NCBI GenBank assembly: GCA_015521685.1
Contig: WANT01000008.1
Span: forward strand, 46,164 to 110,163
From: Aeropyrum sp.
GTDB lineage: Archaea; Thermoproteota; Thermoprotei_A; Sulfolobales; Acidilobaceae
Length of the DNA stretch: 64,000 bases
Reading direction: 5' to 3'
Made by a program: the position numbers and the translations under genes. Numbering within the stretch: position 1 is the first letter of the stretch; every line of letters starts with the position of its first letter. Below the pieces are notes generated by a model, which saw only the letters and a program-made list of their open reading frames with translations, was not told the origin of the DNA and did no database searches. Below, piece by piece: positions 36,071-64,000 of this stretch.

Positions 36071-36091
36071 GGCGGCGGGGCCCCGCTATGG

Positions 36092-36418
36092 TAGCGGGGG
36101 GTGGATTTGAACCACCGACCTCGGGGTGTCCCAAAGCCTCGGGCCGCCATCTATGAAACAATCATTGTAAGGCTTATATGTTTAGTGCCGTGCCAAGCCG
36201 CCACCAACCTCATCCGTAGGCATCGACTGCAGCTTGGCTAGTAAACGTTCGCTTATGCATCCATCTCCCAATGCCATTCTTACTATTGCGAGTATGCTAT
36301 GGAGTTTGATATTCTGGACTTAGGTGTGTGGCCTTAGCTAGACTGGTATAGGATCTTAGGGTGAGGCGGCCCGAGGCTTGTATGAGCCCCGCGGGCTGCC
36401 AGGCTACCCTACCCCGCT
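36092..36418 (-). tRNA. Initiator tRNA-Met(CAT) with 253-nt intron; CCA encoded at 36089-36091
   Basis: Exons AGCGGGG-TA-GGGTAGCCTGGCAGCCC-G-CGGGG-CTCATA / A-CCCCG-AGGTC-GGTGG-TTCAAAT-CCACC-CCCCGCT-A; A1-U72 and GGGG anticodon stem as in archaeal initiators. Confidence 0.95.
36128..36380 (-). other. tRNA-iMet intron (position 37/38), 253 nt, with bulge-helix-bulge splice motif
   Basis: CTCA/TGGG 4-bp central helix flanked by 3-nt bulges TA^C and AC^A, anticodon stem on one side and 15-bp intron stem AAGCCTCGGGCCGCC/GGCGGCCCGAGGCTT on the other. Confidence 0.92.
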
Positions 36419-36461
36419 AGGCTACCCCGCCGTAGTGAGATGATTAGAGTGTTCGGGGCTT

Positions 36462-36635
36462 TTATAGGTTTGTAACGTTGCTTCGCTTGGTATGGCTGCA
36501 GTCATAACCCTCAATCTCTAGGCCGAATCTCTCAGCCAGCCTGCATAGCTCGCTTTTTGGGACAACGCATTTCTGCCCCAACTCTGTCTCCACGAGCACT
36601 AGCTGGTTGTCCAGGATCTTTACTCTAGCCTTCAA
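36462..36635 (-). CDS. Small ORF (57 aa, TTG start) absent from supplied ORF track
   Basis: Translation (M)KARVKILDNQLVLVETELGQKCVVPKSELCRLAERFGLEIEGYDCSHTKRSNVTNL*; fills most of an otherwise empty gap. Confidence 0.55.
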   Translation of the reverse strand: MKARVKILDNQLVLVETELGQKCVVPKSELCRLAERFGLEIEGYDCSHTKRSNVTNL

Positions 36636-63905: not shown

Positions 63906-63978
63906 GCCGCCGTAGCTCAGCTGGCAGAGCGCCGCCCTGGTAAGGCGGAGGCCCCGGGTTCGAATCCCGGCGGCGGCT
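63906..63978 (+). tRNA. tRNA-Thr(GGT), no intron, CCA not encoded
   Basis: GCCGCCG-TA-GCTCAGCTGGCAGAGC-G-CCGCC-CTGGTAA-GGCGG-AGGCC-CCGGG-TTCGAAT-CCCGG-CGGCGGC-T. Confidence 0.97.
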
Positions 63979-64000
63979 CTATGGCATTATTATCAAGCCC

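Follow-up and report, generated by a model that had tools for sequence, protein, structure and literature searches.

A single-copy initiator tRNA gene of Aeropyrum sp. probably made as two adjacent half-genes, at a site that carries putative homing introns in related archaea

How tRNA genes become split is an open question. In Aeropyrum pernix, the gene for tRNA-Asp(GUC) is interrupted at position 37/38 by a 121-nt spacer which has its own promoter and a 14-bp stem, and the separate halves were seen on northern blots (PMC3218864). The initiator tRNA (tRNA-iMet) of Nanoarchaeum equitans is also split at 37/38, with the two halves at distant places, and archaeal tRNA introns have been published with lengths of 11 to 129 nt (PMC3218864). 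Chan, Cozen and Lowe inferred in 2011 that a mobile element with a single precise target in the tRNA was involved, and none was identified (PMC3218864); the nearest earlier candidate is a 1.8-kb insertion beside the tRNA-Thr gene of Caldiarchaeum (PMC3293823). Here we describe the tRNA-iMet(CAU) gene in a 64,000-nt stretch of contig WANT01000008.1 from the heat-loving archaeon Aeropyrum sp. (assembly GCA_015521685.1), which as a whole is called the window. The gene contains a 253-nt insert at 37/38, and in our judgement it is fairly likely to be a functional single-copy gene arranged as two adjacent half-genes that are joined at a bulge-helix-bulge (BHB) motif.

The window contains a single iMet(CAU) gene, located on the minus strand. 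Its exons, 36418-36381 and 36127-36092, rejoin to a 74-nt tRNA followed by an encoded CCA, just as a preliminary description of this DNA had proposed. The parts of the gene and of its fold are as follows.

36381 to 36418, minus strand: exon 1 of tRNA-iMet(CAU), the 5' half (positions 1-37), 38 nt, identical to intronless congeners
36380 to 36386, minus strand: 5' side of the BHB, with the CTCA core helix (36386-36383) and the bulge TA^C (36382-36380), from the fold
36365 to 36379, minus strand: 5' arm of a perfect 15-bp GC-rich stem, AAGCCTCGGGCCGCC, from the fold and shuffles
36128 to 36380, minus strand: the 253-nt insert at 37/38, either an intron or a spacer that separates two tRNA-half genes; absent from syntenic congeners
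36134 to 36148, minus strand: 3' arm of the 15-bp stem, GGCGGCCCGAGGCTT, from the fold and shuffles; predicted 5' end region of the 3'-half transcript
36127 to 36133, minus strand: 3' side of the BHB, with the TGGG core helix (36133-36130) and the bulge AC^A (36129-36127), from the fold
36092 to 36127, minus strand: exon 2 of tRNA-iMet, the 3' half (positions 38-73), 36 nt
36089 to 36091, minus strand: encoded CCA, from the sequence

Folding gave a canonical BHB with flanking helices (hBHBh') at 37/38, within the anticodon stem, in which the CTCA:TGGG core is flanked by two 3-nt bulges. The perfect stem (36379-36365 with 36148-36134) adjoins the BHB, and the insert begins and ends with the arms of this stem. 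When the insert was shuffled 2000 times, its ends were complementary over at most 9 bp, compared with the 15 bp observed. Both the motif and the stem had been pointed out in the preliminary description, and both were recovered here. The minimum free energy of the precursor was -123.6 kcal/mol, and co-folding of the separate halves in trans gave the complete hBHBh', with -76.3 kcal/mol. With its 3-nt bulges, a 4-bp core and exons that rebuild the tRNA, the insert has the features of a BHB tRNA intron at 37/38, except in length: 253 nt falls outside the reported range of 11-129 nt for such introns (PMC3218864), so the remark that it is unusually long was well founded. GC-rich complementary leaders of about 11 to 15 nt next to the BHB, which are expected of an adjacent split tRNA, are present as the 15 perfect base pairs.

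Promoters were sought with a TATA matrix made from 49 non-redundant upstream regions of iMet genes in the order, with the tRNA leader excluded. According to this matrix, real iMet promoters mostly lie 29-36 nt ahead of a GC-rich leader. Two elements were located at the gene of the window.

36455 to 36466, minus strand: TATA box TATAAAAGCCCC for the 5' half, the promoter of the gene, from the TATA matrix
36169 to 36180, minus strand: TATA box CATATAAGCCTT within the insert, predicted to act as promoter for the 3' half, matrix score 11.3, 32 nt before the 3' arm

The second element is the one strong sense match in the insert, and its score exceeds the median of 9.2 of the training promoters. A score as high or higher occurs at 5e-5 of the positions in the 64-kb window, and of the 23 other tRNA promoters in this genome, 22 score lower than the element. 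Its distance from the 3' stem arm is the spacing used by real iMet promoters, so that the spacer, as in an adjacent split tRNA, holds a suitably spaced promoter for the 3' half. Because a promoter this strong lies within the 253 nt, the insert may not be a classical cis intron. The preliminary description had counted more than 200 nt of unexplained sequence inside one intron; that sequence is instead a spacer that contains a strong promoter whose position suits the 3' half. What holds of the earlier description is the initiator tRNA, the BHB at 37/38, the 15-bp stem and the length of 253 nt.

Like tRNA-Asp(GUC) of A. pernix, the gene of the window has adjacent halves on the same strand, an interruption at 37/38, a canonical hBHBh', a strong TATA promoter in the 'intron' and no C/D RNA. 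The GC-rich stem is of similar size, 14 bp there and 15 bp here. The two genes differ in the length of the spacer (121 versus 253 nt), and the tRNA of the window is an initiator, known here from its sequence; introns with endonuclease genes at the same site, found in relatives of the window gene, are not reported for the A. pernix gene. With the split tRNA-iMet of Nanoarchaeum equitans the gene shares the tRNA, the junction and the joining of halves through complementary leaders, whereas the halves are far apart in that organism and 253 nt apart in one orientation in the window. The window gene probably extends the adjacent-split tRNA type to a new host tRNA, and its spacer exceeds the published range of lengths.

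The tRNA probably arises from two RNAs which are joined afterwards. The 5' half would be transcribed from the promoter at 36466-36455, and the 3' half from its own promoter at 36180-36169 in the spacer, with a start just ahead of the 3' stem arm. The two RNAs would pair via the 15-bp GC-rich stem and form the hBHBh', in which the tRNA splicing endonuclease would cut at 36381/36380 and 36128/36127, and RtcB would join the exons. Such separate transcription and trans-splicing is what the arrangement of the sequence suggests. Read-through and cis splicing of one 327-nt precursor could also occur and would yield the same tRNA.

We compared 216 genomes of the order for iMet interruptions. Interruptions of the gene occur at as many as four positions: in the anticodon stem at about 30/31 (site A), at 37/38 (site B, that of the window), at 39/40, where all inserts are short, and in the T loop. 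All 25 long or split iMet genes tested had complementary arms of 11-21 nt. The best TATA element lay 26-38 nt before the 3' arm in 21 of these 25 genes, and a score of at least 5 at that placement was reached in 16, compared with a mean of 0.8 and a maximum of 4 in shuffles. Six relatives have a physically split iMet, with the halves on opposite strands in G096, G140 and G142 and on different contigs in G150, G152 and G154. G151 and G153, congeners of the latter three, keep both halves on one strand at distances of 242 and 147 nt, and their stem and promoter are of the same kind. The 3' half of G150 has TTTATAAGG about 30 nt before its stem, and since this half is physically separate, the element must serve as its promoter. 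The matching element in contiguous genes, including that of the window, is thus best read as a promoter of the 3' half.

Several observations weigh against two separately made halves and would suit an ordinary, very long cis-spliced BHB intron, with one transcript and a TATA-like sequence that has no role. The halves are contiguous and in the same orientation, and the full-length precursor folds perfectly. Downstream of the 5' stem the window has no clear terminator, with neither 4 T nor 7 pyrimidines in a row, and some read-through is therefore likely. A later paper takes the 121-nt form of A. pernix as a cis intron spliced in cis and questions the trans route (PMC4307357), and 4 of the 25 long or split genes have their best TATA at some other place. 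Nevertheless, chance does not account for the strength and position of the promoter in the insert, and the same placement prevails among the long or split genes and is found also at the physically split 3' halves, which need a promoter. We therefore regard a simple cis intron as unlikely. A pyrimidine-rich tract after the 5' stem was also considered as a terminator and rejected, as its average pyrimidine content of 0.66 is too weak, and it is not strong in the window.

A long insert at 37/38 is often accompanied by a second, short insert of about 18-35 nt at 39/40, just two bases downstream (L192, L193, L194, L197, L200 and L201). One 2.5-Mb assembly (G067), possibly a mixed bin, has three different, multiply interrupted iMet loci (L206, L207 and L194), one of which has a site-A endonuclease and another a site-B endonuclease.

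The genome of the window is a 1.44-Mb draft of 68 contigs and is 97% complete. For its aconitase, the nearest matches come from MAGs of Acidilobaceae and Desulfurococcales. No second iMet copy or tRNA half was found in it. The preliminary description had stressed that every translation start depends on this gene, and the importance it gave the gene stands; another intact copy, which it had named as a sign of a pseudogene, was sought without success. ARAGORN does not call the gene, and it is absent among the 39 tRNA matches above the Rfam cut-off in its genome; the sole tRNA called by ARAGORN in the window is an ordinary tRNA-Thr(GGT) at 63906-63979. Joined together, the exons have exactly the sequence of the uninterrupted iMet in the congeners G005 and G006, and the syntenic locus in G005, G006, G007 and G009 lacks exactly these 253 nt, which makes it a precise empty site. 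The draft state of the assembly could be cited in favour of a pseudogene or an assembly artefact. This is extremely improbable, given exons identical to functional genes of congeners, a perfect BHB, syntenic flanks, the lack of any other iMet in the genome and the same architecture in related genomes. Pairwise distances do not decide whether the insert was gained or lost inside the genus; gain within the genus is merely the simpler reading.

The same site is occupied by larger introns in other archaea. We found a LAGLIDADG gene in the iMet 37/38 intron of 11 genomes. These site-B introns are about 1.1-1.4 kb long and encode a dual-motif protein with the motifs GLILxDG and LLAGIIDGDGYIGK. In 231 genomes of the class, all 10 strong matches of the site-B family lay within an iMet 37/38 intron, one of them in another order; the eleventh carrier is G034, in which the intron is cut by the contig end. 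The Pfam match of the site-B proteins to LAGLIDADG_3 (E 0.002) is below the cut-off, and among solved LAGLIDADG structures an I-DmoI chimera comes closest (E 0.037); the assignment therefore relies on motifs and context. Like archaeal rRNA introns of the I-DmoI type, the site-B introns combine a BHB with a dual-motif LAGLIDADG gene at a highly conserved site of an RNA gene; unlike them, the host gene is a tRNA gene, and the copy in the window has no endonuclease. In the open-access literature, subscription papers not being covered, we found no report of archaeal tRNA introns that bear an endonuclease gene.

Site 37/38 is occupied in distant hosts and empty in near relatives, as is expected of a homing intron, and the distribution suggests that a family of LAGLIDADG introns homes to it in related archaea. 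The endonuclease genes of site-A introns belong to a distantly related family. A LAGLIDADG_3 gene also starts beside the T-loop interruption of iMet in L231 (G145) and L237 (G147), which suggests a third endonuclease-bearing site, where the acceptor end was not seen close by. The protein of G145 matches Pfam with E 9e-9, and the T-loop genes belong to a family distinct from those of sites A and B. In four further loci (L196, L202 and L185 of G099, and L195 of G098) the 37/38 insert, 1616 nt long in L196, has no LAGLIDADG gene and contains an archaeal ATPase gene on the opposite strand that matches Pfam ATPase_2 and DUF234.

Decay of such introns was seen in G039, which has a 536-nt intron with a decayed site-B gene (E 2e-6, reached by none of 60 shuffles). 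No endonuclease remnant was found in the inserts of G028, G030, G070 and G071. The comparison of inserts among relatives, which the preliminary description had proposed, thus led beyond a single intron, to endonuclease introns at the same site and to true split genes.

The spacer of the window is most likely an endonuclease-free derivative of a LAGLIDADG-type insertion. It resembles the endonuclease-bearing introns in the type of stem and the position of the TATA element. Its nucleotide similarity to other inserts is weak (best E 0.18), and we do not claim homology. It has no endonuclease gene, no LAGLIDADG endonuclease was found elsewhere in this genome, and the insert has no repeat copy there. 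The best candidate for a remnant in the insert (18.9 bits) was equalled by 14 of 150 shuffles and was rejected. With no remnant and so weak a similarity, the origin of this insert is not proved, and these results count against the proposed descent. A related explanation is that the insert is a dead remnant of a mobile intron and that its TATA is a fossil of the endonuclease gene's own promoter. The genes at the same site in 11 relatives and the clear intermediate in G039 could be read in this way, but in the gene-bearing introns the conserved TATA is located downstream of the endonuclease gene, near the 3' stem, and the window insert shows no trace of an endonuclease. We hold a dead remnant to be improbable.

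Introns of tRNA-Trp host a C/D box RNA, and the length of the insert and its one internal hairpin in the fold might be thought to indicate a guide RNA here as well. However, the sense strand of the insert has neither a C box nor a D box, there is no Rfam match of any family, and the spacer sequence is not conserved between inserts, which makes a hosted guide RNA very improbable. Initiator tRNA is also interrupted in bacteria, by group I introns. Those are self-splicing ribozymes, whereas the insert of the window has a BHB and would be spliced by proteins; Rfam covariance models recognised no group I catalytic core in it.

Outside the exons, two short segments flank the gene.

36425 to 36431, minus strand: leader segment GGCGGGG, complementary to the trailer, from the sequence; recurrent in relatives
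36074 to 36080, minus strand: trailer segment CCCCGCC, complementary to the leader, from the sequence

This complementarity recurs around iMet in many relatives, as if an extra stem closed the precursor.

One tRNA position thus shows all the expected stages across related genomes: the empty site, the endonuclease intron, the decayed intron, the endonuclease-free insert with a promoter, and the physical split. We see about even chances for a wider scheme for this archaeal class, in which BHB introns with site-specific LAGLIDADG endonucleases of their own home to the iMet gene at up to three positions. A gene invaded in this way would gain a promoter ahead of its 3' half and come to be transcribed as two units; once the endonuclease has decayed, as it would have in the window, the halves may drift into true splits. 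If this is true, homing endonuclease introns would represent the long-postulated mobile agent behind split tRNAs, and in this Aeropyrum an RNA needed for nearly every translation start may come from the joining of two separately made RNAs.
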